Of a stretch of DNA of 37,969 nt, positions 25,960 to 37,969 are shown one piece after another. This stretch comes from a virus. The stretch spans positions 1 through 37,969 of the IMG/VR virus record IMGVR_UViG_3300034111_001091; one strand, given 5' to 3'. Numbering within the stretch: position 1 is the first letter of the stretch; each line of letters opens with the position of its first letter. The notes under the pieces were generated by a model. The model was not told the DNA's origin and did not search any database. It worked only from the letters and a program-made list of their open reading frames with translations. Position numbers and translations under genes: made by a program.

Positions 25960-26091
25960 TCAGTTCTCCTCTTGGTAAATCAGGTCTTCAAAGCGGTCGA
26001 CCAACTCCTGCACGAGCGGGTGGTCGAACGCCTCGCGCACGCGCTCGATGAGCGCCTCGTCCTCAAGCCCTTCGGCCTGTGTCCTCGTCAT
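25960..26091 (-). CDS. 43-residue acidic hypothetical protein
   Basis: A short gene starting at ATG 26091, read as MTRTQAEGLEDEALIERVRE, then a helical acidic tail ending IYQEEN, with a TGA at 25960-25962. A strong AAGGAG lies 8 bases upstream, the leader dyad GGGCC-N4-GGCCC lies 13 bases upstream, and a promoter-like pair precedes that. The gene ends three bases before the next start codon. I do not recognise the protein. The complete expression signals make it a likely real gene. Confidence 0.75.
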   Translation of the reverse strand: MTRTQAEGLEDEALIERVREAFDHPLVQELVDRFEDLIYQEEN

Positions 26092-26104
26092 GTCGGTTCT
26101 CCTT

Positions 26105-26118
26105 GGGCCAACCGGCCC
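26105..26118 (-). repeat. Leader dyad (GGGCC-N4-GGCCC) before the 43-residue gene
   Basis: An inverted repeat, GGGCC then AACC then GGCCC on the top strand, immediately 5' of the ribosome site. It is the only copy in the main replication operon of the element found before most small genes of the 30955-34714 region. Confidence 0.65.
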
Positions 26119-26126
26119 GATGCACT

Positions 26127-26155
26127 TATCTAGGACTTAACAAGCAGGTTGTCAC
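26127..26155 (-). promoter_or_regulatory. Candidate promoter; -35 overlaps the primase stop codon
   Basis: On the leftward strand GTGACA (26150-26155), a 17-bp spacer and TAGATA (26127-26132). The TGA of the primase-helicase stop (26152-26154) is inside the -35. It would transcribe the 43-residue gene, the DnaA-like gene and the downstream replication genes. Confidence 0.5.
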
Positions 26156-28158: not shown

Positions 28159-28370
28159 CACTCACCCGTCAGCGCGTGGACCATCTTGCGGACGGCGGGG
28201 GACACGAGGGCGATGCCCGGCACGCCGGAGATTTCCGCGATCTGCATGGCGCGCTTCGGCGGGGCATAGCCCTGCGAGGCCCACAGGCAGACGGCTTGGT
28301 GGGTCACGCCGAGGCGGCGGGCCAGGGGGGCCTTGCCGCCCACGGCCTCGATAGCGGTGTCGATGTTCAT
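28158..28370 (-). CDS. YdaS/Cro-like helix-turn-helix protein
   Basis: A 70-residue protein starting at ATG 28370 with GGAG 7 bases upstream. It matches the YdaS/Cro-type antitoxin-repressor fold: AIEAVGGKAPLARRLGVTHQ, then AVCLWASQGYAPPKRAMQIA. It directly precedes the primase-helicase and follows its own promoter candidate, so it is well placed to autoregulate the replication operon. In prophages YdaS-like proteins act as Cro-type regulators. No partner CI repressor is seen in the window. Confidence 0.85.
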   Translation of the reverse strand: MNIDTAIEAVGGKAPLARRLGVTHQAVCLWASQGYAPPKRAMQIAEISGVPGIALVSPAVRKMVHALTGE

Positions 28371-28391
28371 CGTAGTCTCCTTAAGCGGCGA

Positions 28392-28420
28392 AGGTAAACG
28401 CTTGCGTTGCGGGGCGTCAA
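28392..28420 (-). promoter_or_regulatory. Promoter for the replication operon; -35 overlaps the upstream stop
   Basis: On the leftward strand TTGACG (28415-28420), a 17-bp spacer and TTACCT (28392-28397), about 22 bases before the YdaS-like start codon. The TGA stop of the Rap1a-like gene (28417-28419) is part of the -35. The spacer contains CGCAAGCG, half of the dyad found upstream of several small genes. Confidence 0.6.
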
Positions 28421-28743
28421 GCAGCCTTGCACGGCCACTTCCCGGTGACGGCCAGATCCACGGCGAGGAACGCATCATCGCCGCCCCGCTTGGGATGAGC
28501 ACGCGCGTAGGCAATGAACGTGCGCCGGAGTTCATCGGCGGTCGGGTTGGTGGCGGGGCAGTAGTGCGTCCACACGCCGTTGAGCGCGCGGCGCCAGGTG
28601 TTGCCGCGGACAGCGGCGCGCACATAGCCGAGGCAGAAGGACCGCTCGGCGGGCATGGGGGACTCGCAAATCGGCAGGAGCCAACCGGCGGTGTCGGGCT
28701 TGGGCGCCGCGCTGATAGCGGCGGCGAGGGCTAGGGCGATCAT
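28417..28743 (-). CDS. Rap1a/Tai-like secreted protein
   Basis: A 108-residue protein starting at ATG 28743. The first about 13 residues (MIALALAAAISAAP) are a short signal-peptide-like segment. The rest follows the Rap1a/Tai pattern of four Cys in a helical domain: CESPMPAERSFCLGYVRAA, then HYCPATNPTADELRRTFIAY, AHPKRGGDDA and KWPC near the end. Characterised members are periplasmic immunity proteins against T6SS amidase effectors, and many phages carry uncharacterised relatives. Here it could protect an infected host's wall or block a competing lysis factor. It is preceded by an overlapping run of small genes. Confidence 0.78.
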   Translation of the reverse strand: MIALALAAAISAAPKPDTAGWLLPICESPMPAERSFCLGYVRAAVRGNTWRRALNGVWTHYCPATNPTADELRRTFIAYARAHPKRGGDDAFLAVDLAVTGKWPCKAA

Positions 28744-29051
28744 TGAGCGGCCTCCTTCCCGGCTTTGTAGGCGGCGAGGGCGGCGCAAATCGCGACATTG
28801 AGGTCATTCGTCCCGCTTCGCGTTTTTCGTGCTTCCCCTTCAATATCCCGAAACTCCCATTCCCTTGCGACGATCTCCCGCACCGCCAGCAGGTCAGGAT
28901 CAACGGGCGGCGGCGGGGTCCAGCCTTCGCGGGCTAGGCGGGCAGAGCGTTCAAGCGCCCGCTCCATGCCCTTAAAATCATAGGCTTTGGGTGAGCCTTC
29001 CAGCCTCCACGCCTCACGCCCACGCGCTTCGTCCAGTTCTTCGTCGGTCAT
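28740..29051 (-). CDS. Hypothetical acidic/basic helical protein
   Basis: A 103-residue protein starting at ATG 29051 and overlapping both neighbours by four bases. It is charged and mainly helical (MERALERSARLAREGW, a Pro-rich PPPPVDP bend, then DLNVAICAALAAYKAGKEAA). No motif or family is recognised. Confidence 0.75.
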   Translation of the reverse strand: MTDEELDEARGREAWRLEGSPKAYDFKGMERALERSARLAREGWTPPPPVDPDLLAVREIVAREWEFRDIEGEARKTRSGTNDLNVAICAALAAYKAGKEAAQ

Positions 29052-29386
29052 CGTGCCGCCTCCTTGCGGTCATGTCGCTGCTTGCTCTGGATCCGGTCGG
29101 CGTCGTCGGCGCCTTCCCAGCAGTGGTCGTAATAGGCTGAGTGCAGGTCGGCCTCCTGCGCCTCGGCTTCCCAGCACGGGCCGCACCAGGCGTCGGCGTG
29201 GGCGTCGGTCGTCACAAGGTCGCCGTCCTCCCACCAGTCGCCACAGCGCGGGCAGCGCACGGCGTCGATCATCTGGAGTTGAGTGGTGAAGGACTCGACG
29301 TCCTGGTCCGGTGACAGGGCGTCCTGCCACCAGGTGCCGTACGCCTCGACCAAAGCGATGCGGATGTTGTCGGGTGTCAGTCGCAT
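29048..29386 (-). CDS. Small zinc-ribbon-like phage protein
   Basis: A 112-residue protein; ATG 29386 is chosen over longer open sequence because it falls just past the end of the previous gene, with a 10-base overlap. Two Cys pairs, VRCPRCGDWW and AWCGPCWE, form a likely zinc ribbon in the middle. A Tyr/Asp-rich segment and a basic C-terminus (KQRHDRKEAAR) follow. It probably binds nucleic acid or a protein partner. Function unknown. Confidence 0.75.
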   Translation of the reverse strand: MRLTPDNIRIALVEAYGTWWQDALSPDQDVESFTTQLQMIDAVRCPRCGDWWEDGDLVTTDAHADAWCGPCWEAEAQEADLHSAYYDHCWEGADDADRIQSKQRHDRKEAAR

Positions 29387-29559
29387 GGGCCAATACCTTT
29401 GAAGTCGTAGGGGACGAAGCGTCCGTAAATGTCCAGATAGCCCCCGCGCTCGTGAGCCCGTTGCTCTTTCCGCGTGCGGCAGTGGCCGCATTTTCCGTCC
29501 CATGCGGACACCTTGCCCTTGCCGCAGCGACAGGTGACGCGGGTGTCGGGCAGCTTCAT
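29377..29559 (-). CDS. 60-residue Cys-rich protein
   Basis: ATG 29559 overlaps the upstream stop. Four Cys in two pairs (VTCRCGKGK and GKCGHCRTRK) suggest a small zinc finger. The C-terminal half (YLDIYGRFVPYDFKGIGPCD) is aromatic. It lies beside another zinc-ribbon protein. No function assigned. Confidence 0.75.
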   Translation of the reverse strand: MKLPDTRVTCRCGKGKVSAWDGKCGHCRTRKEQRAHERGGYLDIYGRFVPYDFKGIGPCD

Positions 29560-29747
29560 CGCCCCGCCTCCAGCGCGTCGGCCAGGGCCGCGGCCTCGGT
29601 GGCCAGCTTGCGGGCGGCATGGCGCGCGGCGTCAACCGCGGCCTCGGTGGTGAACGATCCGGTGAGCGTGCGCCGGATGACGGACGCCTGAGCCTCGACG
29701 GTGGAGGCCCTGCGGTTCAGGTCGATAGTCACGGTGCGGTAGGTCAT
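29556..29747 (-). CDS. 63-residue Ala-rich helical protein
   Basis: Starts at ATG 29747, overlapping the 26-residue membrane gene (ATGA). A short strand-like start (YRTVTIDLNRRAS) precedes Ala-rich helices (AAVDAARHAARKLATEAAAL). No family recognised. Confidence 0.7.
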   Translation of the reverse strand: MTYRTVTIDLNRRASTVEAQASVIRRTLTGSFTTEAAVDAARHAARKLATEAAALADALEAGR

Positions 29748-29824
29748 GAGCGGTTTCCCAGTGAGACAGCGAGCGAAAGGAGGGTGGCGATGATCCAGAA
29801 GGTGAAGCGAAGGGCGGCGATCAC
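29744..29824 (-). CDS. 26-residue single-pass membrane miniprotein
   Basis: GTG 29824 overlaps the previous stop (GTGA) and the TGA at 29744-29746 overlaps the next ATG (ATGA). The product, MIAALRFTFWIIATLLSLAV followed by SLGNRS, is almost entirely one membrane helix. It fills exactly the gap between two coupled genes, which is strong positional support despite its size. It may be a small membrane regulator or toxin-like peptide. Confidence 0.65.
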   Translation of the reverse strand: MIAALRFTFWIIATLLSLAVSLGNRS

Positions 29825-30021
29825 GGCTGGCCTCGCATGTTGCGGTGGGCCTCCAGCGTTCGGCGGGCGAACGACAGGAGGACGTTGTCAGGCAGGGAGT
29901 CGGCCAGGGTGTAGAGGCTGGCCGACATGCCGCGCCCGATATCTCCGAACTGCTCGGCCTCCTCGATAGCGTGGATCAGGTCGGCGCGGGCGGGTAGCCG
30001 TGGGGGTGGGTGGAGCATCAT
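29821..30021 (-). CDS. 66-residue hypothetical protein
   Basis: Starts at ATG 30021 or 30018 (two adjacent ATGs), overlapping the pentapeptide-repeat stop. A Pro-rich start (LHPPPRLPAR) is followed by helices (LIHAIEEAEQFGDIG, then NVLLSFARRTLEAHRNM). No family recognised. Confidence 0.7.
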   Translation of the reverse strand: MMLHPPPRLPARADLIHAIEEAEQFGDIGRGMSASLYTLADSLPDNVLLSFARRTLEAHRNMRGQP

Positions 30022-30527
30022 GCGTCCGCCCTCCGCTCGAAGAAGTCCAGAATGTCCAGCGTCTCGCGGGCGCTATCGGTGCCGGGGTATTCGGCGGCGA
30101 CGTGCGCGCGGTATTCGGGGATCGTGAACCAACGACAACCGGCCATGACCCTGTGAGAGCCGTCCGTCAGGCGGAACAGGTGGAAGGTGTAGCCGTCCAT
30201 GCGTCCGGCGGCGGCGATACAGGCGGCGAGGGTGTCGTTCCGGTAGTTGGCATCGCGCAAGTCGGCGCCGCGCAGGTCTGCATGGTTAAGGTTGGCGCCG
30301 CGCAAGTCGGCGCCGCGAAGGTCAGCGCCGCGCAGGTCGGCATTGTACAGGCTGGCACCGCGCAAGTCGGCGCCGCGCAAGTCGGCGTCGTACAAGTTAA
30401 CGCCGCTAAGGCTGGCGCCTCGCAGGTCGGCGCCTCGCAGGTCGGCACCTCGCAGGTTGGCGCCGAACAAGGTTCTGCCGCTCGCCCATGAGACAGCGGC
30501 GAGGTAGGCCATGTGCGGGTTGCTCAC
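30018..30527 (-). CDS. Pentapeptide-repeat protein
   Basis: A 169-residue protein; GTG 30527 overlaps the membrane miniprotein stop, and an ATG five codons later is the alternative. Residues about 18-97 are sixteen tandem pentapeptides, mostly ADLRG or ANLRG, forming a right-handed quadrilateral beta-helix. The C-terminal about 70 residues (DGYTFHLFRLTDGSHRVMAG, then CRWFTIPEYRAHVAAEYP) are a separate domain often found after phage pentapeptide repeats. Some pentapeptide proteins mimic DNA and bind gyrase (MfpA, Qnr). That role is possible here, alongside GapR, but the 16-repeat helix is shorter than theirs. Confidence 0.88.
   Translation of the reverse strand: MSNPHMAYLAAVSWASGRTLFGANLRGADLRGADLRGASLSGVNLYDADLRGADLRGASLYNADLRGADLRGADLRGANLNHADLRGADLRDANYRNDTLAACIAAAGRMDGYTFHLFRLTDGSHRVMAGCRWFTIPEYRAHVAAEYPGTDSARETLDILDFFERRADA
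30237..30476 (-). repeat. Sixteen 15-bp tandem repeats encoding pentapeptides
   Basis: The unit is close to GCGCCGCGCAAGTCG on the top strand, repeated without spacers in frame inside the pentapeptide gene. Variation is mostly at codons for the outward-facing positions. It is coding repeat sequence, not a CRISPR array. Confidence 0.9.
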
Positions 30528-30631
30528 AGCACACCCCCAGCCGCCGCCAGGGCGATGATAAGCCAGCACAGGGCGGCGACGGTGGAGGCGGTCAGGACGG
30601 CCTCGGCGGCTAGGCGGATGAGGCGGGTCAT
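30524..30631 (-). CDS. 35-residue single-pass membrane miniprotein
   Basis: ATG 30631 overlaps the upstream stop (ATGA), and the TGA at 30524-30526 overlaps the next GTG. The product starts MTRLIRLAAEAVLTASTVAA and continues with LCWLIIALAAAGGVL. A basic N-terminus is followed by one long membrane helix. Like the 26-residue gene, it is exactly framed by coupled neighbours, so it is likely translated. Function unknown. Confidence 0.7.
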   Translation of the reverse strand: MTRLIRLAAEAVLTASTVAALCWLIIALAAAGGVL

Positions 30632-30954
30632 CCCTCGCCCCCTTCCTGCATCGCGTCGAAGTCAGCTTGCGGGATGGCCTCGGCGGGCCAGCGGTTCGCC
30701 GTGTCGGCGCTACGGACAACGTCGGCCAGGATCTCGGCACGCGCGTCCGCCTCCGCGACGGCCAGCGAATAGTAGCCGTAACCTATCCAGGGGGCTTGCA
30801 GCGTCTTGCGCCACAGGCGGTATCCGACCCCGTCGGGCTCTTCGCGGATCTCATATTGCGCGCTGTCATGGGTCAGGATCTCATGGCCGGCCTCGGCCAG
30901 GGTGAGCCCTTGGGCGATGGGCTCGCCTTGGGCGTCTATGACTGCGTAAAGCAT
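30628..30954 (-). CDS. Hypothetical cassette protein
   Basis: A 108-residue protein; ATG 30954 has GGAGA 6-10 bases upstream and the leader dyad 21 bases upstream, so longer frames are rejected. It is acidic and rich in aromatic residues (HDSAQYEIREEPDGVGYRLW, then APWIGYGYYSLAVAEADARA). Similar short proteins occur on proteobacterial phages and plasmids without known function. It heads the run of overlapping small genes down to 28417. Confidence 0.8.
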   Translation of the reverse strand: MLYAVIDAQGEPIAQGLTLAEAGHEILTHDSAQYEIREEPDGVGYRLWRKTLQAPWIGYGYYSLAVAEADARAEILADVVRSADTANRWPAEAIPQADFDAMQEGGEG

Positions 30955-30975
30955 CGGTGTCTCCTGTGTCTGAGC

Positions 30976-30990
30976 GGGCCAGGCTGGCCC
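30976..30990 (-). repeat. Leader dyad copy A (GGGCC-N5-GGCCC)
   Basis: GGGCCAGGCTGGCCC on the top strand, 21 bases before the start codon at 30954 and followed by an ACAGGAGA ribosome site. Confidence 0.7.
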
Positions 30991-31040
30991 TCCTACTGCC
31001 TCCGGCCCGCTACCGTTTCCGGCGCGGGCCTGCTGTGGCA

Positions 31041-31070
31041 AGTAAAGGCGGAACTTGCGGCGGGTGTCAA
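31041..31070 (-). promoter_or_regulatory. Candidate promoter; TTGACA overlaps the upstream stop codon
   Basis: Leftward TTGACA (31065-31070), an 18-bp spacer and TTTACT (31041-31046). The stop TGA of the gene at 31067 is inside TTGACA. It would drive the 30954-28417 gene run. Confidence 0.55.
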
Positions 31071-31483
31071 TCGCCGAAGTAGAACTGCTGTGCGAAGGTC
31101 AGGACGTCCGCCGCTTCCTCGGCGGTGAGCGGGTGCGGGGTCCAGGGCGTGCCCCAGTCCTGATACTCAAGCCGGGCGGTGCCGGGCTGGCCGTAAGTGT
31201 CAAGCTGGCCGGCGATGCGGGTTGCCGGGCCGCCCGTTGCCAGGAGGATCTGGTATTCGGTCGGCTCTTGCACGTCGGCGGCGCCGGGCTGATACCAACC
31301 CGAACGGACTTCCACCGAAAGGGGCGCTTCATGGATGGCCGTTTGCGCGGCGTCGATATCGTATTGCGTCCCGTCGCGTTCGGAAACGTCATAGGCGGCG
31401 TCCAGGGCGGCGACCATCTCGCGGATGGTGGCGAGCCAGGCGGTCGCGTTGTCGCGGGCGTGGGTGTCAGGGGTGGCGGTCAT
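31067..31483 (-). CDS. Conserved phage/plasmid hypothetical protein
   Basis: A 138-residue protein starting at ATG 31483, with AGGAG upstream and a leader dyad 22 bases away. The C-terminal half is a recognisable conserved block seen in many proteobacterial phages and plasmids: TEYQILLATGGPATRIAGQL, then ARLEYQDWGTPWT and ADVLTFAQQFYFGD. The N-terminal half is helical. No function is known to me. It stands alone as an independent cassette. Confidence 0.82.
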   Translation of the reverse strand: MTATPDTHARDNATAWLATIREMVAALDAAYDVSERDGTQYDIDAAQTAIHEAPLSVEVRSGWYQPGAADVQEPTEYQILLATGGPATRIAGQLDTYGQPGTARLEYQDWGTPWTPHPLTAEEAADVLTFAQQFYFGD

Positions 31484-31505
31484 GGCGCTGTTTCTCCTGT
31501 AGCGC

Positions 31506-31520
31506 GGGCCGGGCTGGCCC
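31506..31520 (-). repeat. Leader dyad copy B (GGGCC-N5-GGCCC)
   Basis: GGGCCGGGCTGGCCC on the top strand, 22 bases before the start codon at 31483, followed by an ACAGGAGA ribosome site. Confidence 0.7.
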
Positions 31521-31530
31521 ATGGGTTAAA

Positions 31531-31559
31531 GCGTTAGCTTGTATCCGGGCGGGTGTCAA
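31531..31559 (-). promoter_or_regulatory. Candidate promoter; TTGACA overlaps the upstream stop codon
   Basis: Leftward TTGACA (31554-31559), a 17-bp spacer and TAACGC (31531-31536). The stop TGA of the gene at 31556 is part of the -35. An AAG-N6-CTT dyad overlaps the -10. Confidence 0.5.
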
Positions 31560-31846
31560 CCGCCGGTGGCGCGAGCGATGGCGGCGCGTGCGCGCTCAAT
31601 CGCCCGGCGCCCGCCTTGCGGGGCCGCGCAATTAGCGAAAACGCCTTCCGCTTCCGCCTTTTGAAGCCAGGGGAGAACGTCCCCCAAGACTTCAAGCAAG
31701 TCGGGCGCCGCGGCGATCAGGCGGGCGTTGGCGCGGTTTTTAGTCGGGGCGATTGTTTCGGCCAATGCGCCCGGCTTAGGCGGGCCGAATACGGTAAAGC
31801 CCGCGTCGCCAATCCTCCAAGGCCCGGGCGTATGTTGCGAAGTCAT
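31556..31846 (-). CDS. HTPGPW/NARLIAAAPDLL phage family protein
   Basis: A 96-residue protein starting at ATG 31846. It belongs to a very common family of short phage proteins with an N-terminal HTPGPWRIGD and a central NRANARLIAAAPDLLEVL block. The family has no established function. A helical Ala/Arg-rich C-terminus completes it. It has its own leader dyad and an upstream covarying hairpin, so it is an independent cassette. Confidence 0.9.
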   Translation of the reverse strand: MTSQHTPGPWRIGDAGFTVFGPPKPGALAETIAPTKNRANARLIAAAPDLLEVLGDVLPWLQKAEAEGVFANCAAPQGGRRAIERARAAIARATGG

Positions 31847-31873
31847 GGCGGGTCAATCTCCTGTAGCTAGGCG

Positions 31874-31886
31874 GGCCAGGGTGGCC
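31874..31886 (-). repeat. Leader dyad copy C (GGCCA-N3-TGGCC)
   Basis: GGCCAGGGTGGCC on the top strand, 27 bases before the start codon at 31846, followed on the leftward strand by CTAGCTACAGGAGA. Confidence 0.65.
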
Positions 31887-31902
31887 AGCCTTCACGCCGG
31901 CG

Positions 31903-31928
31903 GCCTCCGCACGCTAGGCGCCGGAGGC
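31903..31928 (-). terminator. Intercistronic hairpin with the conserved 12-nt loop
   Basis: Arms GCCTCCG (31903-31909) and CGGAGGC (31922-31928) enclose the loop CACGCTAGGCGC. The same loop with a different but equally paired stem occurs at 34220-34245. It lies 27 bases after the stop of the gene at 31956. There is no T-run, so termination is only one possible role. Confidence 0.6.
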
Positions 31929-31955
31929 TTTGGGGCGGGTTGTCCGCGGTGGGTG

Positions 31956-32177
31956 TCAGGCGAAATAATCGCCGAACGCCATATCGGCGAGAACGGCGAC
32001 CTTGGCCGGGGGCATGTCGTCACACTCGGCCAAGGCTTCCAGCGTCCTGCGGAACGCCGACTCCTGGTCGCCGGGTTGAAAGTAGACCTCCCGGCCCTGC
32101 GGGTTGCGCAGGACAAGCCCGACGCGCAAGGGGCAGTATGAGTAGCCGCCGGCGAGGTTGAGGTAAGGGGACGTCAT
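31956..32177 (-). CDS. Small conserved phage/plasmid cassette protein
   Basis: A 73-residue protein; ATG 32177 has AGGAGG 8-13 bases upstream, so the longer frame to 32210 is not used. The sequence SYCPLRVGLVLRNPQGREVY and FQPGDQESAFRRTLEAL resembles a small family found beside other cassette proteins on phages and plasmids. Function unknown. It is first of the leftward cassettes, facing terS across the repeat-rich intergenic region. Confidence 0.8.
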   Translation of the reverse strand: MTSPYLNLAGGYSYCPLRVGLVLRNPQGREVYFQPGDQESAFRRTLEALAECDDMPPAKVAVLADMAFGDYFA

Positions 32178-32198
32178 GGCTAGGGCCTCCTGACGGGG

Positions 32199-32218
32199 GC
32201 GGGCCGCCATTGGCCCGC
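32199..32218 (-). repeat. Leader dyad copy D (GCGGGCC-N6-GGCCCGC)
   Basis: A perfect 7-bp inverted repeat with a 6-nt loop, 21 bases before the start codon at 32177, followed by a CAGGAGG ribosome site. Confidence 0.7.
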
Positions 32219-32236
32219 GCTCCCCGTCTGAATTGA

Positions 32237-32266
32237 TATATAAGGGAAGGCTAAAAAGGGGCGCAA
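32237..32266 (-). promoter_or_regulatory. Candidate leftward promoter for the 32177 gene
   Basis: Leftward TTGCGC (32261-32266), an 18-bp spacer and TATATA (32237-32242). A perfect CGCAAG-N6-CTTGCG dyad (32262-32279) overlaps the -35 and could be an operator. Confidence 0.45.
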
Positions 32267-32334
32267 GCGGAAACTTGCGGGTAGGTTGCGTTTTTATGCG
32301 AGGGGGGTCTGAGGGTTTAGGGGCCTGTTATCCT

Positions 32335-32510
32335 TTGCAACGTGCAACGCGGCGCATCACGATGCATCATGTTGCACGTGTTGCAACGGCCCGGGGTTGC
32401 AACGCGAAGTGCAACGTGAGGGGGGCCCCCTATACGTAGTATAGGGCCCCCCACGTGTTGCACGTTGCAACCGGCGTTGCGCGGTGTTGCGTTGCGCGTT
32501 GCGCTGCAAA
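32335..32510. repeat. GTTGCA-type iterons and large palindrome in the divergent intergenic region
   Basis: At least seven CGTTGCA(A/C) or inverse copies occur: 32335-32342, 32342-32349, 32371-32378, 32380-32388, 32396-32404, 32409-32416 and 32457-32470. Further GTTGCG variants run to 32505. In the centre, GGGGGGCCCCCTATAC, then GTA, then GTATAGGGCCCCCC (32420-32452) forms a near-perfect palindrome, flanked by CAACGTG and CACGTGTTG, so the dyad extends outward. The whole gap 32178-32700 has no supported gene. An origin, a partition-like site or a regulatory node is possible. Confidence 0.75.
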
Positions 32511-32640
32511 GCCTTTAGCCGTCTGTTAATCGGCGCTGAGACAGTGGCCAGGAAGGCGGTTAGCTGGCGGCTGTTAGGTCCGGTTAGCCTTTGTCGGATA
32601 GCGTGTCGCGGCGCCCCTCGCACACATAGGCGGGCGCGCA

Positions 32641-32669
32641 TTGACGCGAGGTCGGTCGGCGGGTATAAC
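32641..32669 (+). promoter_or_regulatory. Strong sigma70-type promoter for terS
   Basis: TTGACG (32641-32646), a 17-bp spacer and TATAAC (32664-32669): the best consensus match in the window. The start site should be near 32676, giving a leader of about 25 bases to the ATG at 32701. Confidence 0.75.
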
Positions 32670-32700
32670 CCTTGGCTGTAGAGACAGGGGACTTCAGCGC

Positions 32701-33153
32701 ATGGCAGTCAACGGGATTGGGCGCCCTAGCACGTACCGCGAGGATATTGCCCGCGAGATTTGCGAGCGCCTTTCGGACGGTGAAAGCCTTAACGCTATGT
32801 GCGGTCCTGACAGGCCGGAAGGCTGGCCGGATCGCCGGACGGTTCGAGCGTGGCGCAATTCCAACCCAGACTTTGAAGCCATGTACGCCCGCGCGAAACA
32901 GGCTCAGGCTGACTACTACGCCGACGCAATCCTGGCGGAGGCATACAGCGCTGACGAGTCGCGGATCCAATCCGCCCGCCTTCGCGTTGACGCGCTCAAG
33001 TGGCAGGCGAGCAAGCTTAACCCGGCGCGTTGGGCCGATAACGTCAGGCTGACGGGTGGCGACGGCTCCGGCGCCGTGCAAGTCGACGTGACGGCTAAGA
33101 GCGCGCTTGTCGACGGGATCCTTGACGCAATGAAAAAGGCGCCCGGCGGTTAG
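32701..33153 (+). CDS. terS: Phage terminase small subunit
   Basis: A 150-residue protein starting at ATG 32701, the first start after the promoter; the longer frame beginning at 32641 starts inside the promoter and is rejected. It has the small-terminase layout: a helix-turn-helix start, GRPSTYREDIAREICERLSD, then PDRRTVRAWRNSNPDFEAMY, a helical oligomerisation part (YARAKQAQADYYADAILAEA) and RIQSARLRVDALKWQASKLN before a flexible tail. It recognises phage DNA for packaging and recruits the large subunit. Oddly, no large terminase follows: the next genes are leftward. Its stop codon lies inside a terminator hairpin. Confidence 0.9.
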   Translation: MAVNGIGRPSTYREDIAREICERLSDGESLNAMCGPDRPEGWPDRRTVRAWRNSNPDFEAMYARAKQAQADYYADAILAEAYSADESRIQSARLRVDALKWQASKLNPARWADNVRLTGGDGSGAVQVDVTAKSALVDGILDAMKKAPGG

Positions 33154-33163
33154 ACCGGGCGCC
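33138..33163 (-). terminator. Intrinsic terminator for the leftward small genes, overlapping the terS stop
   Basis: GGCGCCCGG (33138-33146) and CCGGGCGCC (33155-33163) form a perfect 9-bp stem with an 8-nt loop. On the leftward strand five Ts follow. It ends leftward transcription from 34451-33189 before it opposes terS. The terS TAG sits in the loop. Confidence 0.85.
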
Positions 33164-33188
33164 CCTTGGCGCGAGCTGCTAGGCCAGG

Positions 33189-33389
33189 CTAGGCCCAAAG
33201 GCGCAAAAGCCTTTCAGACTCCCGCCAGTTTCCATATGCCGCTTGCCCGGCATACACGCGACGGGCCGTCGGAGTCCGCTTCAGCCGCTTCAATGCGCGT
33301 TCGTGGCGCGCCGCTTTGGCCGGGTTGTCGTCAAAGACGTTCTGCCTATGCCACCGAACAAGGCGGTTCAGCTTTTCGGATTCAGTCAT
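33189..33389 (-). CDS. Small basic hypothetical protein
   Basis: A 66-residue, Arg/Lys-rich helical protein starting at ATG 33389 behind GGGAGG (LVRWHRQNVFDDNPAKAARH, then ERALKRLKRTPTARRVYAGQ). It may bind nucleic acid. It lies last in the leftward group, 26 bases before the terminator. No family recognised. Confidence 0.7.
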   Translation of the reverse strand: MTESEKLNRLVRWHRQNVFDDNPAKAARHERALKRLKRTPTARRVYAGQAAYGNWRESERLLRLWA

Positions 33390-33403
33390 GGCCTAAGCCT
33401 CCC

Positions 33404-33865
33404 TTAATTGAAATGTTCCGCCACGGCGCTACCGAACAAGGCGCGCACGACGTCGCGGCAGTCCGCCAGATAGACCGGCTCGGGCTCAATCCATACGGCG
33501 CCCTCAGCGTCGCAATCGCACGGCTCGCACGTCTCGGGGTCCATCCAATAACCTTCAGGCTCAGGACCGAAAGAGACGTATTCAGCGTCAAGGTCCACAT
33601 ATGCGGCTGATACATTCGCCTCGATCCAAGCCTGAAAGTGATCGGCTAGCGGCCCGAACGTCTCAGCGACGGAATATCCCTCGCCTTCAAGGTCGGCATA
33701 TTCCGTCGCGTAATCGTCAAGGGTGAAGCCTTCGAAGCCTTGCGGCCCGAGGCGAGCGAAAGACGGCCCGTTATACAGGTCATAGCGCAAAGCGGCCGCC
33801 GCGGCTTCTACGTGCTCAGGGAGGCGGATAGCGTCCCGGATAAGAGCGTCAATCTTGTCGCGCAT
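33404..33865 (-). CDS. Acidic hypothetical protein with Cys cluster
   Basis: A 153-residue protein; ATG 33865 is chosen for its GGAG 9 bases upstream, although TTG 33880 is in frame. It is strongly acidic with many Glu/Asp/Tyr (DDYATEYADLEGEGYSVAET) and a CEPCDCD cluster that might bind a metal. The acidic charge could indicate a DNA-mimic or anti-restriction role, but no family is recognised, and this is only a possibility. Confidence 0.75.
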   Translation of the reverse strand: MRDKIDALIRDAIRLPEHVEAAAAALRYDLYNGPSFARLGPQGFEGFTLDDYATEYADLEGEGYSVAETFGPLADHFQAWIEANVSAAYVDLDAEYVSFGPEPEGYWMDPETCEPCDCDAEGAVWIEPEPVYLADCRDVVRALFGSAVAEHFN

Positions 33866-33904
33866 AGCCTCATTCTCCAATTGGCTAGTTGATCCTAGCC
33901 CAAA

Positions 33905-33932
33905 GGGACCGCACGCGCGTGGCGCCGGTCCC
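33905..33932 (-). terminator. Intercistronic hairpin, GGGACCG/CGGTCCC, variant loop
   Basis: A 7-bp stem (33905-33911 and 33926-33932) with a 14-nt loop, followed on the leftward strand by TTT. The flanks (about 60 bp, including GATAGGCGGTTTG and CCGCTATGTG) repeat at 34212-34270. Confidence 0.6.
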
Positions 33933-33964
33933 GATAGGCGGTTTGCCCGCTATGTGAGGGGCGG

Positions 33965-34168
33965 TTAGCGGCGCGCGATATAGTCGAGCACGTCAGACAG
34001 ACTGTCAGACGCCATAAGCGCGTCAGCGTCGTCATACAGCGTCAGTAGGTCATCCGCCGCAGGGTCAATCGCTAGGTCAAACCTGCCGCATGGCGACCGC
34101 ATGAACCGGCAGACGTGCGGATAGATAGGGTCCGTCTGCCATCCGGCGAAAAGGTGAAGGCTGATCAT
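33965..34168 (-). CDS. 67-residue hypothetical protein
   Basis: Starts at ATG 34168, with CGGAGC 11 bases upstream and a leader dyad 22 bases upstream. It begins MISLHLFAGWQTDPIYPHVC, then has an acidic helical end (DDADALMASDSLSDVLDYIA). Cys-x-x-x-x-x-x-Cys spacing is present but no known finger. Function unknown. An independent cassette. Confidence 0.7.
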   Translation of the reverse strand: MISLHLFAGWQTDPIYPHVCRFMRSPCGRFDLAIDPAADDLLTLYDDADALMASDSLSDVLDYIARR

Positions 34169-34190
34169 TATCGCTTGCTCCGATTAGCTA

Positions 34191-34203
34191 GGCCACGGCG
34201 GCC
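34191..34203 (-). repeat. Leader dyad copy G (GGCC-N5-GGCC)
   Basis: GGCCACGGCGGCC on the top strand, 22 bases before the start at 34168. CTAGCTAATCGGAGC follows on the leftward strand, nearly the same as at the 34451 gene. Confidence 0.65.
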
Positions 34204-34219
34204 CGGCTTCTAGCCCAAA

Positions 34220-34245
34220 GGGACCGCACGCTAGGCGCCGGTCCC
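34220..34245 (-). terminator. Intercistronic hairpin with the conserved 12-nt loop, second copy
   Basis: GGGACCG (34220-34226) and CGGTCCC (34239-34245) enclose CACGCTAGGCGC, the loop also seen at 31910-31921 with the stem bases GCCT/AGGC exchanged for GGGA/TCCC. TTT follows on the leftward strand. Confidence 0.65.
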
Positions 34246-34277
34246 GATAGGCGGTTTGTCCGCTATGTGTGGCGCTG

Positions 34278-34451
34278 CTAGTCAGGCAGGCGCGTCAGGT
34301 ATTCGCCGCAGGCTTCCAGCAGGCTTGTAACGTGCGACAGCGCGTCTTGCGCGGGATGGTCATAGCCTAGCCTTTCCATAAGGCGGTCGACGTCCTGCGC
34401 CACGGTTTCCAGCGCCGCTGCAATCCGTTCCGCTTCGCTTTGCTTGTCCAT
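34278..34451 (-). CDS. 57-residue helical hypothetical protein
   Basis: ATG 34451 is chosen for GGAGCG 7 bases upstream; TTG 34466 is the in-frame alternative. It is one or two amphipathic helices (AERIAAALETVAQDVDRLME, then ALSHVTSLLEACGEYLTRL). Likely an oligomer or a small binding partner. No family recognised. Confidence 0.7.
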   Translation of the reverse strand: MDKQSEAERIAAALETVAQDVDRLMERLGYDHPAQDALSHVTSLLEACGEYLTRLPD

Positions 34452-34474
34452 TGTCTTTCGCTCCAATGCAGCTA

Positions 34475-34487
34475 GGCCACCATGGCC
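34475..34487 (-). repeat. Leader dyad copy H (GGCC-N5-GGCC)
   Basis: GGCCACCATGGCC on the top strand, 23 bases before the start at 34451. A CAAGTAACCGCTTG element lies about 40 bases further upstream (34525-34542). Confidence 0.65.
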
Positions 34488-34659
34488 CGGCGTCTCGATC
34501 CTTAGACACTATCCCGGCGGCCGACGCAAGCGGTTACTTGTATCCCGTCTAGTGTGGCGAGGTGGCGCGCCCTGGCCTAACTAGGCGGACTCCTTATAGA
34601 TGCACGCGAGGCGCGAGCATGGCGCATGGCGTGCGACAATCCGCCGCGGCTCTTAAGGC

Positions 34660-34688
34660 TTGACGCCATGGGCCGGCTGGCCTAGGAT
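34660..34688 (+). promoter_or_regulatory. Candidate promoter for the rightward early genes
   Basis: TTGACG (34660-34665), a 17-bp spacer and TAGGAT (34683-34688). The stretch 34467-34816 holds no supported gene. It contains the dyad at 34475, the CAAG dyad at 34525, a GACTC (34588-34592) next to TTATAGAT, this promoter and a leader of about 120 bases before AAGGAG and the ATG at 34817. Confidence 0.6.
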
Positions 34689-34701
34689 CCTCTGGCGTAC
34701 A

Positions 34702-34714
34702 GGGCCGATGGCCC
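34702..34714 (+). repeat. Leader-type dyad (GGGCC-N3-GGCCC) in the rightward leader
   Basis: GGGCCGATGGCCC just after the expected start site of the 34660 promoter. It is the only copy associated with a rightward gene and is much farther (about 100 bases) from the start codon. Confidence 0.55.
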
Positions 34715-34816
34715 GGACCCCTATACCCCACTTGGGAATGGCGGACGGGTGCTTGTAGGGCCGCCCGCAATTTTTGCAACAGCCCACCCTCAAAGGGCTA
34801 ACAAGGAGACAACAAC

Positions 34817-35023
34817 ATGTCTAACTACCGACTCGGTAACCACGAGCACGTCGTCCCGCTGAGCCTTTGGATTTCAGAGGACAACAAGACGCTGACCGTC
34901 CGCAAGGGCGCCGGCTTCGACGCCTGGCTGGCCAACACCTACCCGCACACCCAAGAGGACCAGGACGGCGATTCGGCCAACCTGCTCAGGCACGTCAGTG
35001 ATTGGCTGAAGGAGACGCCGTGA
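34817..35023 (+). CDS. Small hypothetical protein, first rightward early gene
   Basis: A 68-residue protein starting at ATG 34817 behind AAGGAG. It is acidic with a short beta-rich front (VPLSLWISEDNKTLTVRKGA) and a helical end (SANLLRHVSDWLKETP). No family recognised. TGATG overlap with the next gene. Confidence 0.75.
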   Translation: MSNYRLGNHEHVVPLSLWISEDNKTLTVRKGAGFDAWLANTYPHTQEDQDGDSANLLRHVSDWLKETP

Positions 35024-35460
35024 TGCCCGACGTCCCCGACGACTACTGGCTCCGTCGCGCCGGCGTGTTCGATGACGACTGGATCGAACACACCGGCGAC
35101 ACCTGCCCCGTCCCGCCCGACACCAAGGTTCGGGTCCGTTTCAGAAATGGCACGGTGTCCCGCCAGCCCTATGAGGCTGGCGGATGGAACTGGGGAGTGG
35201 GTACGGGTGACTACCACCTCGACGCCTACCAGATCGTCGAGCAGCCCGACGCACCGACCGACCACTACCGTCAGGGCGACATCGAGTGTATCGACGCGAT
35301 CCGCGCGGCCCTGACCGACGAGGAGTGGCGCGGCTATTGCAAGGGCAACGTGCTGAAATACACATGGCGCGAGAAGCACAAGGGCGGCGACGGCAGCCTG
35401 CTCAAGGCGCAGGACTACCTGCGCTGGGCTCTGGCGGGGAAGGCGGAGGACAAGCGGTGA
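35023..35460 (+). CDS. WIEHT-domain plus DUF3310 protein
   Basis: A 145-residue protein starting at ATG 35023 (overlap with the previous stop). Residues about 17-75 are a small beta domain, DDWIEHTGDTCPVPPDTKVR, then VRFRNG and ending YQIVEQP, shared with two neighbouring genes. The C-terminal part is DUF3310: YRQGDIECIDAIRAALTDEE, then YCKGNVLKYTWREKHK and KAQDYLRWAL. DUF3310 occurs widely in phages, sometimes labelled nucleotide kinase-like, without proven activity. The fusion suggests the first domain is a mobile binding module. Confidence 0.85.
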   Translation: MPDVPDDYWLRRAGVFDDDWIEHTGDTCPVPPDTKVRVRFRNGTVSRQPYEAGGWNWGVGTGDYHLDAYQIVEQPDAPTDHYRQGDIECIDAIRAALTDEEWRGYCKGNVLKYTWREKHKGGDGSLLKAQDYLRWALAGKAEDKR

Positions 35461-35849
35461 CCGACTGGATCGAACACACAACCGACACCTGCCCGGTAGA
35501 CCCGGAGACGGTGGTGGAGGTGCGGATCAAGCACGGCGCAAGCATAATCGACTGGTCGCCCCCAAGGCCTGCCCGCCGCTTTCGCTGGTCGGACCCCTGC
35601 ATCACCCACTACCGCATCATCACCCCCGCCAAGCCCCCGGAGCCCGAGGAGCCGTTTGCGCCGTGGGATAGCTGGCCGAAAAGGTCGAGCGAGGCGCTGC
35701 CGTCTGAACCCGACCTCATCAACCTCCGTCTGGAGTGCCTGAAGCTGGCGGTGACCCCGGAGCTGAACCCTTACGGGCTGACAGATGTCGAGCAGGTCGC
35801 GGACCGTTTCCTCCACTACGTCCTCAACGGATCGGTGGACAAGGCGTGA
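35457..35849 (+). CDS. WIEHT-domain protein with helical C-terminus
   Basis: A 130-residue protein from GTG 35457 (GTGA overlap). The first about 60 residues repeat the module of the previous gene: MTDWIEHTTDTCPVDPETVV, then VRIKHGASI and HYRIITPAKPP. A Pro/Glu-rich linker leads to a helical end (DLINLRLECLKLAVTPELNP, then VADRFLHYVLNGSVDKA) that differs from DUF3310. Function unknown. Tandem copies imply duplication and shuffling. Confidence 0.8.
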   Translation: MTDWIEHTTDTCPVDPETVVEVRIKHGASIIDWSPPRPARRFRWSDPCITHYRIITPAKPPEPEEPFAPWDSWPKRSSEALPSEPDLINLRLECLKLAVTPELNPYGLTDVEQVADRFLHYVLNGSVDKA

Positions 35850-36106
35850 GCAAGCCAGACCTCAAGATAGTCGGGGAGATCAAGCCGCCCGCCTACAAGG
35901 ACCCAGCCACGATGCTGCGGAACATAGCCAACGACATTGAGGCGGGTGTCTATGGCGAGGTGTCCACGATTGCTGTGGCTTTGGCCGCCGAGGAGGGTGT
36001 CGAGCTGTTTTGTGGTGGCGGGCAGTCCTCTCTTGAGCACTGCGCCTTTTTGTTCGGGACAGCTGCCGCGCGGTGTCATGCTCGTAGACCCAGTCGAAAA
36101 AGGTGA
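35846..36106 (+). CDS. Conserved small phage protein (DIEAG-Y-GEVSTIAVAL family)
   Basis: An 86-residue protein from GTG 35846 (GTGA overlap). The centre, MLRNIANDIEAGVYGEVSTI and AVALAAEEGVELFCGGGQ, is a block I have seen in many short phage proteins without known function. The C-terminus is unusually basic (RCHARRPSRKR), and its stop is immediately before the tRNA-like sequence. In another frame the same DNA reads MLVDPVEKGEVEAEG, so a frameshift or a junction close to the att-like site is possible. Confidence 0.75.
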   Translation: MSKPDLKIVGEIKPPAYKDPATMLRNIANDIEAGVYGEVSTIAVALAAEEGVELFCGGGQSSLEHCAFLFGTAAARCHARRPSRKR

Positions 36107-36108
36107 AG

Positions 36109-36133
36109 TGGAGGCGGAGGGAATCGAACCCTC
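36109..36133 (-). other. tRNA/tmRNA 3'-end-like sequence, possible attachment core
   Basis: On the leftward strand GAGGG, TTCGATT, CCCTC is a perfect T-arm (36117-36133). It is followed by CGCCTCC (36110-36116), the shape of a 3' acceptor strand, and an A discriminator (36109). CTT replaces CCA, and no matching 5' acceptor or anticodon arm is found at tRNA distance. It looks like the 3' end of tRNA-Ser or of an alphaproteobacterial ssrA, as left at phage attP sites. No integrase is in the window. Confidence 0.5.
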
Positions 36134-36347
36134 GGGGATCATCGGTTCGCTGCCGCGACCCCGGGTAGACAAGGCGTGAGGCTTGGGGCATAGTCCCGTT
36201 CTCAGGCTTCGGCCTGAGTGGCGTCCTCGACAACCCACCCCAATGAACTGGCCTCCTCTTTCTTTGCGTTGATCGACTTGAGGCGATAAGGCGGTCTGAT
36301 TCACCACCTTCGCATATCCACCCTCACGGCTTCGGGCGTGAGTCGCA

Positions 36348-36378
36348 GGGCCGGGGGCAACCTCGGCCCTTGCTTTTT
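36348..36378 (+). terminator. GCAA-tetraloop hairpin terminator, copy 1
   Basis: GGGCCGGGG (36348-36356), GCAA, CCTCGGCCC (36361-36369) form a 9-bp stem with one G-T pair, then TTGCTTTTT. It is a convincing rightward intrinsic terminator. The non-coding stretch 36107-36991 also holds a CTCAGGC-TTCG-GCCTGAG hairpin (36201-36218) and no supported gene. Confidence 0.75.
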
Positions 36379-36518
36379 GTGGTGGGGCGGCTCATAACAG
36401 GCAGGCTCAAGCGGATGCAAAAGAGCAACCCGCCCGAAAGGGTCCTGCGGCGCGCGGGGGTAACGGGATTTCCGGCACACGCCACCGACACGCAGAAGGT
36501 CGGGGCGTTACAACTTAG

Positions 36519-36540
36519 GGGCCGGGAGCAATCCCGGCCC
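36519..36540 (+). terminator. GCAA-tetraloop hairpin, copy 2
   Basis: GGGCCGGGA, GCAA, TCCCGGCCC: a perfect 9-bp stem with a base change on both arms relative to copy 1. It is followed by TTGCCATTTGCG, which recurs after a partial right arm at 36592-36610. Weak T-run. Confidence 0.65.
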
Positions 36541-36874
36541 TTGCCATTTGCGACATGGGAAATCCCATAGCGGAACAAAAGCAAGCACTTAGCGGCCCTT
36601 GCCATTTGCGCTATTTAGCTTGCCCACACGCTCAGGTGTGCGGCCATGCGATAGCTACGACGTATAACCCCCAGCTTATGCGCCAGGCCTGCGGATATAA
36701 CAGCCACCCTTGACACCTGCGTGGATCTGGCGCCACATGCCGTCACGCCCCACCCGGGACTCCTTTCGAGACCACGGGCGACGGGACTTCGAGGCCAGGG
36801 CAGCGCCGCAAGGCGTCAACGCGGGCCGGGAGCGGGGTTGTCATATTACCCGTAATGCCTTGGAAGTCGCCGCG

Positions 36875-36896
36875 GGGCCGGGAGCAACCTCGGCCC
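36875..36896 (+). terminator. GCAA-tetraloop hairpin, copy 3
   Basis: GGGCCGGGA, GCAA, CCTCGGCCC with a loop-closing mismatch, followed by TTGCTTTATG. It ends the non-coding stretch about 95 bases before the next gene. Confidence 0.65.
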
Positions 36897-36991
36897 TTGC
36901 TTTATGCGCCAGGCTCGTCTACCGTCCCTGCGACTGGCCAATGGTGGCCGGTTACGACCCTTGAGGCCGACAAGTGGCCTGGAGAGACAAC

Positions 36992-37159
36992 ATGACTAAC
37001 TGGACCTCACATCAGTGGGAAGACGGCGAGTTTCCCGAACCCGACCCCAAGCCTTCTCCAGAGAGGCAGCGGAAACTTGACGAGATTTCCAATGCCATCT
37101 GGGGATCAGGCACCGTTGTGAGCCTGGACGCGCTGTTCAAGGTGAAGCGCGGTGGCTGA
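36992..37159 (+). CDS. 55-residue hypothetical protein
   Basis: ATG 36992 lies 5 bases after GGAGAG, the best start; the longer frame from 36974 lacks a site. It is acidic and Pro-rich (QWEDGEFPEPDPKPSPERQR), then helical (KLDEISNAIWGSGTVVSLDA). No family recognised. It overlaps the next gene by 8 bases. Confidence 0.7.
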   Translation: MTNWTSHQWEDGEFPEPDPKPSPERQRKLDEISNAIWGSGTVVSLDALFKVKRGG

Positions 37160-37583
37160 CTGGATTGAACACACGGGCGGACCCCAGCCGGTCGCGGATG
37201 ACGTGTGGGTAAGGGCGGAGCACGACCGCGAAAGCCTCGGCTCACGCGGCCATCCCGCAGGAGCATTTCTCTGGTATACCGTCCTCCGCTATCACGTCCT
37301 CAACCAGCACCTGATCGACGCCGCCCGGCTAGAGGGCATCCGGCTAGGGCTGGAGGCTGCTGCGAAGGAGGCTGACAAGGGTTCGGATCGCCTAGACGGT
37401 GAGTGGCGGGAAGGGTGCAAGACGGACAACCACCTAGAGGGCCGGAGCGACGGCATGGATGAAGCCGCCGAACTGATCCGCGCCCTCGACCCCGCCACCA
37501 TCGCCCGCGAGGCCGTCCTAGATAAGCTGGCGAGCGAGGCGCAGGAGCAGGGGATGGGCTATGAGAAGGAGGCTGACCAGTGA
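37152..37583 (+). CDS. WIEHT-domain protein with duplicated Arg/Ala-rich helix
   Basis: A 143-residue protein from GTG 37152. It starts with the third WIEHT copy (MADWIEHTGGPQPVADDVWV), here degenerate and without the Cys. A helical segment, NQHLIDAARLEGIRLGLEAA, encoded by a 76-bp stretch that is repeated in the next gene, and acidic helices complete it. No enzymatic motif. It is probably a shuffled early protein that binds a host factor, but that is inference. Confidence 0.75.
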   Translation: MADWIEHTGGPQPVADDVWVRAEHDRESLGSRGHPAGAFLWYTVLRYHVLNQHLIDAARLEGIRLGLEAAAKEADKGSDRLDGEWREGCKTDNHLEGRSDGMDEAAELIRALDPATIAREAVLDKLASEAQEQGMGYEKEADQ

Positions 37584-37733
37584 GTGAAGATGAACGCATC
37601 AAGGCGCTGGAGGATGCTTTGCGGAAGCAAATCGCGCTGCACAACAGCCCCATCATCAACCAACACCTGATCGACGCCGCCCGGCTAGAGGGCATCCGGC
37701 TAGGGCTGGAGGCTGCTGCGCGGGAGGCTGACA
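37302..37733 (+). repeat. 76-bp direct repeat shared by two adjacent genes
   Basis: Bases 37302-37377 and 37658-37733 are identical apart from three substitutions. Both are in the same reading frame and encode NQHLIDAARLEGIRLGLEAA. They suggest a recent intragenic duplication. Confidence 0.85.
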
Positions 37734-37834
37734 TTGACTGGCACGACCCCCAAAGCCGCAGTCAGGCTAGGCTGACCGTCGCCCACATCCGCGACCTAGA
37801 CCCCGAGACCATCGCAAAGGAGGCTGACCAGTGA
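37580..37834 (+). CDS. 84-residue helical protein carrying the duplicated segment
   Basis: Starts at GTG 37580 (GTGA overlap). An N-terminal helix (RIKALEDALRKQIALHNS) is followed by the repeated NQHLIDAARLEGIRLGLEAA unit and an acidic end (LDPETIAKEADQ) that also echoes the previous gene's LDPATIAREA. It looks like a shortened paralogue of its neighbour. Function unknown. Confidence 0.72.
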   Translation: MSEDERIKALEDALRKQIALHNSPIINQHLIDAARLEGIRLGLEAAAREADIDWHDPQSRSQARLTVAHIRDLDPETIAKEADQ

Positions 37835-37969
37835 ACCCTAGCTGGCTCATCCTCCACATCATCGACGCCCTGCGCGTCCCCTCGCCCCCGCCGCATCCCG
37901 CTGACGGCTACTGCTCCGATGCTCTGGCTACCGGGCTTGGCGTGGCGGCTGTCGTTGCGTTCCTAGCCA
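37831..37969 (+). CDS. Hydrophobic protein, 3' truncated by window edge
   Basis: GTG 37831 overlaps the previous stop (GTGA) and the frame is open to the end of the window, giving 46 residues. A short amphipathic start (MNPSWLILHIIDALRV), a Pro-rich loop and the beginning of a membrane segment (ALATGLGVAAVVAFLA) are visible. It is probably a small membrane protein. Confidence 0.65.
   Translation, partial: MNPSWLILHIIDALRVPSPPPHPADGYCSDALATGLGVAAVVAFLA

Follow-up and report, generated by a model that had tools for sequence, protein, structure and literature searches.

To our knowledge, phage repeats associated with gene starts have been known since 2011 and have no agreed function. The element described here is a predicted compact stem-loop that lies just ahead of the Shine-Dalgarno (SD) sequence of most genes preceded by an intergenic gap in a tailed phage. 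The phage is represented by the complete IMG/VR record IMGVR_UViG_3300034111_001091 (37,969 bases; hereafter the window), which contains tail, DNA-ejection, DNA polymerase, primase/helicase and small terminase genes. Its closest known counterparts occur in actinobacteriophage clusters K and EG, again as start-associated inverted repeats. In cluster K, the start-associated sequence (SAS) is an asymmetric 13-mer located at the SD (PMC3203893), and about half of the SAS copies have an inverted repeat upstream (PMC3203893, PMC11373665). The extended SAS (ESAS) have arms of 17 bp, and from their variation the authors saw little support for RNA hairpins (PMC3203893); they contain putative promoters (PMC11373665). 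In the cluster EG Microbacterium phages Hyperion and OneinaGillian, an 18-bp inverted repeat, GATCAACCNNGGTTGATC, occupies intergenic positions 14–22 bp before the starts of small genes near one genome end and is retained though the surrounding region differs between phages; start-associated repeats are also found in Microbacterium clusters EC and EF (PMC7302621). Copies of the EG repeat were seen in both the Hyperion and OneinaGillian genomes in this analysis.

The element in the window shares with the EG repeat the form of a short inverted repeat located in intergenic gaps at a fixed short distance before starts (here a median of 7 nt to the SD). With the cluster K sequences it shares repetition ahead of genes of different families in the non-structural part of the genome; the likeness to cluster K drawn in the original prediction, which was made from the sequence alone, is apt in kind, with differing sequences. 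The differences are substantial. The arms in the window are of GGCC type, GGCTAG, AGCCC or long GC stems and do not match the consensus GATCAACCNNGGTTGATC. The EG repeat is one essentially fixed sequence of actinobacteriophages for which replacement by unrelated stems has not been described, whereas here differing stems occupy the same place, even before orthologues. The 13-bp SAS motif GGGATAGGAGCCC is absent from the leaders, which carry (A/C)AGGAG or ATTGGAG and lack the flanking GGG/CCC motif, and in place of the 17-bp imperfect inverted repeats of ESAS they have arms of 4–11 bp and loops of 3–9 nt, with replacements that keep the pairing. The literature searched (open-licence papers) yielded no account of the present element. 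In the window and its relatives, the element has a constant position, the potential to form a stem-loop and within-clade conservation, and genes are exchanged at the start codon that follows it.

The comparison set consisted of the uncultured phages G1 (IMGVR 3300042392_000853), G2 (IMGVR 3300028430_000244) and G3 (IMGVR 3300044643_000612; the same region is present in G4, 3300034018_000646), a 62.9-kb contig (M13) from a metagenome-assembled genome (MAG) labelled Aestuariivirga, the contigs M14a and M14b from a MAG labelled Acidobacteriaceae (binning of phage contigs being weak evidence of host in both cases), and the more distant G15 (also L293; 3300016476_000533). Over shared stretches, nucleotide identity to the window is 86–87% for G1, G2, G3 and M13, 83–92% for the M14 contigs, 78% for G15 and 70% for Caulobacter phage RW. 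Among isolated phages, the nearest DNA polymerases are those of RW and its kin (58%) and Bordetella phage BPP-1 (56%).

The stem-loops were assessed without reference to their sequence. Genes were called with a home-made hexamer/SD gene finder, and those having an SD and preceded by a gap of 40 nt or more were designated gap genes. A hairpin was defined as a perfect stem ending at most 13 nt upstream of the SD (GC-weighted score of at least 4.3, loop of 3–9 nt, at most one G-U pair), and the expectation was obtained by dinucleotide-shuffling the same 40 bases 100 times. In the window, 10 of 12 gap genes have a predicted stem-loop whose end lies 0–11 nt from the SD on its upstream side (2.6 expected, p = 8e-7), compared with 1/12 for the segment 40 nt further upstream and 1/21 for genes without a gap. 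Hairpins are likewise present at 9/13 gap genes of G1, 13/18 of G3, 9/16 of M13, 4/4 of M14a and 8/15 of G15. In RW their number is not significant (7/36 versus 5.2 expected), and among eight distant relatives G10 is marginal (4/12 versus 1.4, p = 0.03) and the others are not significant. When only distinct leaders are counted, 31 of 51 contain a hairpin (11.1 expected, p = 9e-11), as do 11 of the 30 that lack GGCC arms (5.5 expected, p = 0.009). The distance from the hairpin to the downstream SD is short and narrowly distributed (median 7 nt, interquartile range 4–10), in contrast to the distance to the upstream gene (median 76, interquartile range 34–328), an observation that speaks against its being the terminator of that gene. 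For the 74 gap genes of five phages, the two 6-nt bins adjacent to the SD hold 52 hairpin counts, and bins further upstream hold 4–11 each. Folding z-scores of whole leaders give a mixed picture (−0.9 to −2.5; +0.7 for the rightward one). Position, and not exceptional stability, therefore carries the claim.

The original prediction had described GGGCC-N5-GGCCC, or a close variant, before six small leftward genes. All six dyads are present on the minus strand. Each lies in the interval that separates the start codon from the preceding gene and has CTAGCT or ACAGGAG-type sequence after it; the exact form occurs just twice and the others are variants. They comprise the hairpins of leader A (GGGCCA-GCC-TGGCCC, 30976–30990), located 10 nt ahead of AGGAG of gene 30628–30954 and conserved in G1, G3 and M13; leader B (GGGCC-AGCCC-GGCCC, 31506–31520), ahead of gene 31067–31483; leader C (GGCCA-CCC-TGGCC, 31874–31886), ahead of gene 31556–31846 (phrog_1273), in which the arms of the dyad are only GGCC; and leader D (32192–32228), ahead of the first leftward gene here, 31956–32177. 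In leader D, the dyad core (within 32199–32218) has an N6 loop and forms part of a longer composite stem, GACGGGG..GCGGGCC-AATGGC-GGCCCGC.CCCCGTC, with a fold z-score of −2.5. The remaining two are GGGCC-GCCGT-GGCCT (34190–34204), ahead of gene 33965–34168, and GGGCCA-TGG-TGGCCT (34474–34488), ahead of gene 34278–34451. A seventh predicted copy, GGGCC-GGTT-GGCCC (26105–26118, minus strand), does precede the 43-residue gene 25960–26091, but it has an N4 loop, lies 1 nt ahead of AGGAG and is 13 nt, not about 22 nt, from the start. The eighth, GGGCC-GAT-GGCCC (34702–34714, plus strand), exists in the rightward leader with an N3 loop but is not start-associated, being about 100 nt ahead of the start; a promoter-like sequence lies about 14 nt upstream of it. 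Further hairpins had not been noted in the original prediction. A tandem pair lies ahead of the rightward gene 36992–37159, with GGCC-AATGGT-GGCC (36936–36949, plus strand) upstream and AGGCCG-ACAAG-TGGCCT (36964–36980, plus strand) abutting the SD GGAG. Two hairpins with other arms occupy the same position: GGCTAG-GATCAA-CTAGCC (33883–33900, minus strand), 4 nt ahead of GGAG of gene 33404–33865, and AGCCC-N9-GGGCT (34781–34799, plus strand), 4 nt ahead of AGGAG of gene 34817–35023 and conserved in G1, G3 and M13. What generalizes is the stem-loop at its position ahead of the SD, more than the GGCC sequence.

Across the window, a loose dyad pattern is not over-represented (79 matches versus 87 in shuffles). 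Of 25 occurrences of GGCC-N3-7-GGCC, however, nine lie in non-coding DNA at most 60 nt upstream of starts, which constitutes 3.2% of the bases (binomial p = 4.5e-8), and genes, which make up 89% of the DNA, hold just 13. The signal is therefore positional. The motif is far rarer per base inside genes than before them, and the relatives retain the dyads and their spacing, often more faithfully than the genes, so the proposal of a start-associated element withstood both of these checks.

The sequence of the stem appears to be replaceable and its position kept. Gene 31067–31483 has orthologues in M13 (76%), G3 (62%) and G15 (62%), each with a stem-loop shortly ahead of the SD, and the four stems are all different: GGGCC/GGCCC, CCGGCGGC/GCCGCCGG, GGCCCGGCGGC/GTCGCCGGGCC and TGGGGCC/GGCCCTA. 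Similarly, gene 33404–33865 is preceded by the stem GGCTAG/CTAGCC, and its G1 orthologue (84% amino acid identity) has GGGCC-GTGGT-GGCCT instead. In the hairpin at 36964–36980, G1 and M13 have G-C in place of the outer A-U pair, and in G1, where the counterpart reads GGGCCG-ATAAG-CGGCCC, the inner G-U pair is likewise replaced by G-C. In a G15 leader, found through a neighboring hairpin of a second type (h2), arms of GGCGCC surround the loop ATGGT, which is elsewhere seen with GGCC arms. Selection thus appears to act more on the presence and place of the stem-loop than on its sequence, and the replacement of the arms by unrelated stems ahead of the same gene suggests that what is conserved is RNA structure. 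Outer-pair covariation from an earlier, mixed set of sites was discarded, as that set included some probably intragenic sites.

Leaders and genes are also exchanged separately. Leader B is 82–94% identical in five phages, in which it stands ahead of four unrelated gene families, and leader D is 74–99% identical in five phages, ahead of five mutually unrelated genes. M13 and M14a are 97–100% identical at leader D across the 75 bases leading up to the start codon, and beyond it their identity is 40%. In ordered pairs of the window, G1, G3 and M13, a matched leader with an unmatched gene was found at 46 of 129 hairpin starts and at 68 of 912 others (11/189 gap starts without a hairpin and 57/723 starts without a gap). 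The earlier suggestion of a recombination joint for gene cassettes gains support from this roughly fivefold difference and from the sharp drop in identity at the start codon. Since near-identical leaders precede interchangeable small genes, the leaders would double as homology for gene swaps, and the boundary between leader and start codon provides a concrete junction for the exchange of small phage genes. Boundary sequences have been proposed for phage mosaicism (PMC3029335), and the leaders resemble them as short conserved sequences at the junction of interchangeable genes that homologous recombination could use. Here, however, a structured leader coupled to the start codon forms the boundary, and it is repeated at several loci of one genome.

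Our preferred reading, to which we assign a probability of about 0.5 on the basis of sequence comparison, is that a structured RNA leader gives each small gene its own start, probably by protecting or insulating its mRNA, and additionally acts as an exchange joint. The leader of most gap-preceded genes would contain a compact RNA stem-loop with a stem of 4–11 bp, commonly with GGCC arms, and with its 3′ side about 7 nt ahead of the (AC)AGGAG SD. We infer that the stem-loop acts in the mRNA, probably forming a barrier where the ribosome-binding region begins on its 5′ side. This barrier would shield the downstream message from decay and/or mark a standby module for independent ribosome entry, and each small gene could then be expressed regardless of upstream context. 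Stem-loops of the ompA and papA type at the 5′ end stabilize bacterial mRNA, according to work cited in PMC3997798, and standby-site hairpins have been described (PMC3936740). In both, as here, a leader stem-loop is located a few nucleotides upstream of the SD, and the geometry of the ribosome standby module (hairpin, short single-stranded stretch, SD; PMC3936740) is shared by the leaders. Those hairpins, however, belong to single genes and have a tested function, whereas the element here is a phage-wide repeat with a function deduced from its features. A wider version of this reading is more tentative. It would make the leader a general plug-in expression module, indifferent to sequence, with a stem-loop obligatory before the SD of gap-preceded small genes and with leader and gene recombining independently at the start codon, the shared structure both ensuring expression of newly acquired genes and serving as the joint for their acquisition.

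Several observations weigh against the preferred reading. Two gap genes of the window with an SD (171 and 28158) have no hairpin, and all start positions rest on the home-made gene finder. The GGCC-type core is nearly invariant and covariation within it is weak (95.6% paired versus 93.7% in shuffles, with 53 of 500 shuffles as high), a pattern that would also fit a DNA site or a recent shared origin; the RNA reading therefore rests on replacement and position and not on classical covariation. No clear promoter was found ahead of the internal leaders, whose hairpins would be 5′-terminal or intercistronic. The original prediction had also suggested that the dyad may control translation initiation. 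In partition-function folding, a simple accessibility model of such control, shuffling of the hairpin leaves the predicted accessibility of the ribosome-binding site unchanged (0.507 versus 0.504, p = 0.41), so plain exposure of this site is unsupported and we favor protection of the mRNA or a bound factor. The ordered-pair counts are not independent, and their p value of 2.5e-16 for a kept leader with a replaced gene is indicative only.

A bound factor would be central if the stem-loop were an RNA operator, through which a phage or host protein switched the small genes jointly at the level of translation. The SD-adjacent position, the near-invariant GGCC core of most copies and the clustering of GGCC-type leaders ahead of small non-structural genes would suit such a role, which has a precedent in T4 gp43 controlling its own gene via an upstream hairpin operator (PMC3014915). 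Freely varying loop sequences, several leaders with unrelated arms and the lack of an identified candidate RNA-binding regulator make it unlikely. The same invariance of the arms, which are self-complementary as DNA, could instead reflect a palindrome read in the duplex by a phage regulator, as an operator or part of a promoter. This has been proposed for the cluster K ESAS, which contain putative promoters (PMC11373665), and promoter-like sequences are found upstream of leader D and at 34660–34688. We nevertheless regard a DNA operator as unlikely: unrelated stems stand in for the dyad at the same site in orthologous genes, the outer pair is G-U in 5 of 19 aligned copies, which pairs in RNA and is not palindromic in DNA, and the internal leaders have no clear promoter.

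The enrichment of kept leaders with replaced genes and the sharp junctions would also be expected if the leaders were mainly recombination joints or spreading repeats without a role in expression, selected only for shared homology. Pure homology requires sequence and not structure, however, and would leave both the different hairpins before orthologues and the tight SD spacing unexplained; this explanation is very unlikely. We consider intrinsic terminators or attenuators of the upstream gene highly improbable. The hairpins are intergenic and some leaders are accompanied by an upstream h2 hairpin, but they lack the U-run that follows the GC stem of an intrinsic terminator, their stems are often just 5–6 bp, it is from the downstream SD, not the upstream stop, that they keep a fixed distance, and a terminator scan of 26000–37969 reported none of them. 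The hairpin in the leader of G1 gene 15611, with the loops TTCG, CTCG and GCAA in orthologues, may be a weakened terminator, as RW has a hairpin and T-rich sequence there, and it was not used as key evidence.

Loops of similar sequence (GCGCC..GCGTG) characterize the h2 hairpins, whose stem varies complementarily (GGGACCG/CGGTCCC, GGGTCCG/CGGACCC, GCCTCCG/CGGAGGC). Thirteen intergenic copies are present in the compared phages, several of them just upstream of start hairpins. In the window, all on the minus strand, they are GGGACCG-GCGCCTAGCGTG-CGGTCCC (34219–34246), upstream of the start hairpin of gene 33965–34168; GGGACCG-GCGCCACGCGCGTG-CGGTCCC (33904–33933), upstream of gene 33404–33865; and GCCTCCG-GCGCCTAGCGTG-CGGAGGC (31902–31929), upstream of gene 31556–31846. 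At about 17241–18300 of G15, three tandem rightward cassettes follow each other at intervals of about 350–390 bases, each composed of h2, a start hairpin, an SD and a small gene (77, 89 and 79 amino acids).

Leader D and the dyad at 34702 are the only elements located just downstream of promoter-like sequences. A putative promoter, TTGCGC-N17-TTATAT (32238–32266, minus strand), read from the sequence and conserved in the alignment, lies just upstream of leader D. The rightward genes have the promoter-like TTGACG-N17-TAGGAT (34660–34688, plus strand), with a spacer containing the dyad GGCCGGCTGGCC (34671–34682) that is also found in G3. A sigma-70-type promoter before every leader was considered and rejected, as the TTGACA-like strings at leaders A and B overlap the preceding stop codon without a consistent −10 element. 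Searches of the window against Rfam 15 gave no matches above the gathering score, and a tRNA search likewise found nothing. Blast of the region against isolated phages yielded one unrelated 5% match and against plasmids none. A scan of the viral collection with the loose dyad pattern was dropped because of too many chance matches, and a tighter pattern matched the known relatives alone.

Outside the leaders, the primase/helicase (26152–28158, minus strand) is 97–99% identical to those of G1, G2 and G3, compared with just 81–84% for the DNA polymerase, a contrast that may be read as a sign of recent exchange. The pentapeptide-repeat protein gene (30018–30527, minus strand) contains direct DNA repeats (GCGCCGCGCAAGTCGGC), and the length of its product differs among relatives (169, 233 and 137 amino acids). 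The gene-free stretch at 32330–32480, beside the small terminase gene, contains repeated GTTGCA/TGCAAC-type words and the large palindrome GGGGGGCCCCCTATACGTAGTATAGGGCCCCCC, and is a candidate replication origin or packaging site. Finally, repeated, terminator-like GC hairpins, GGGGCCGGGAGCAACCTCGGCCCTTGCTTT, are located at 36347–36370, 36526–36540 and 36874–36897 (plus strand) in a 1.1-kb gap without a called gene, and similar sequence is conserved in G1.

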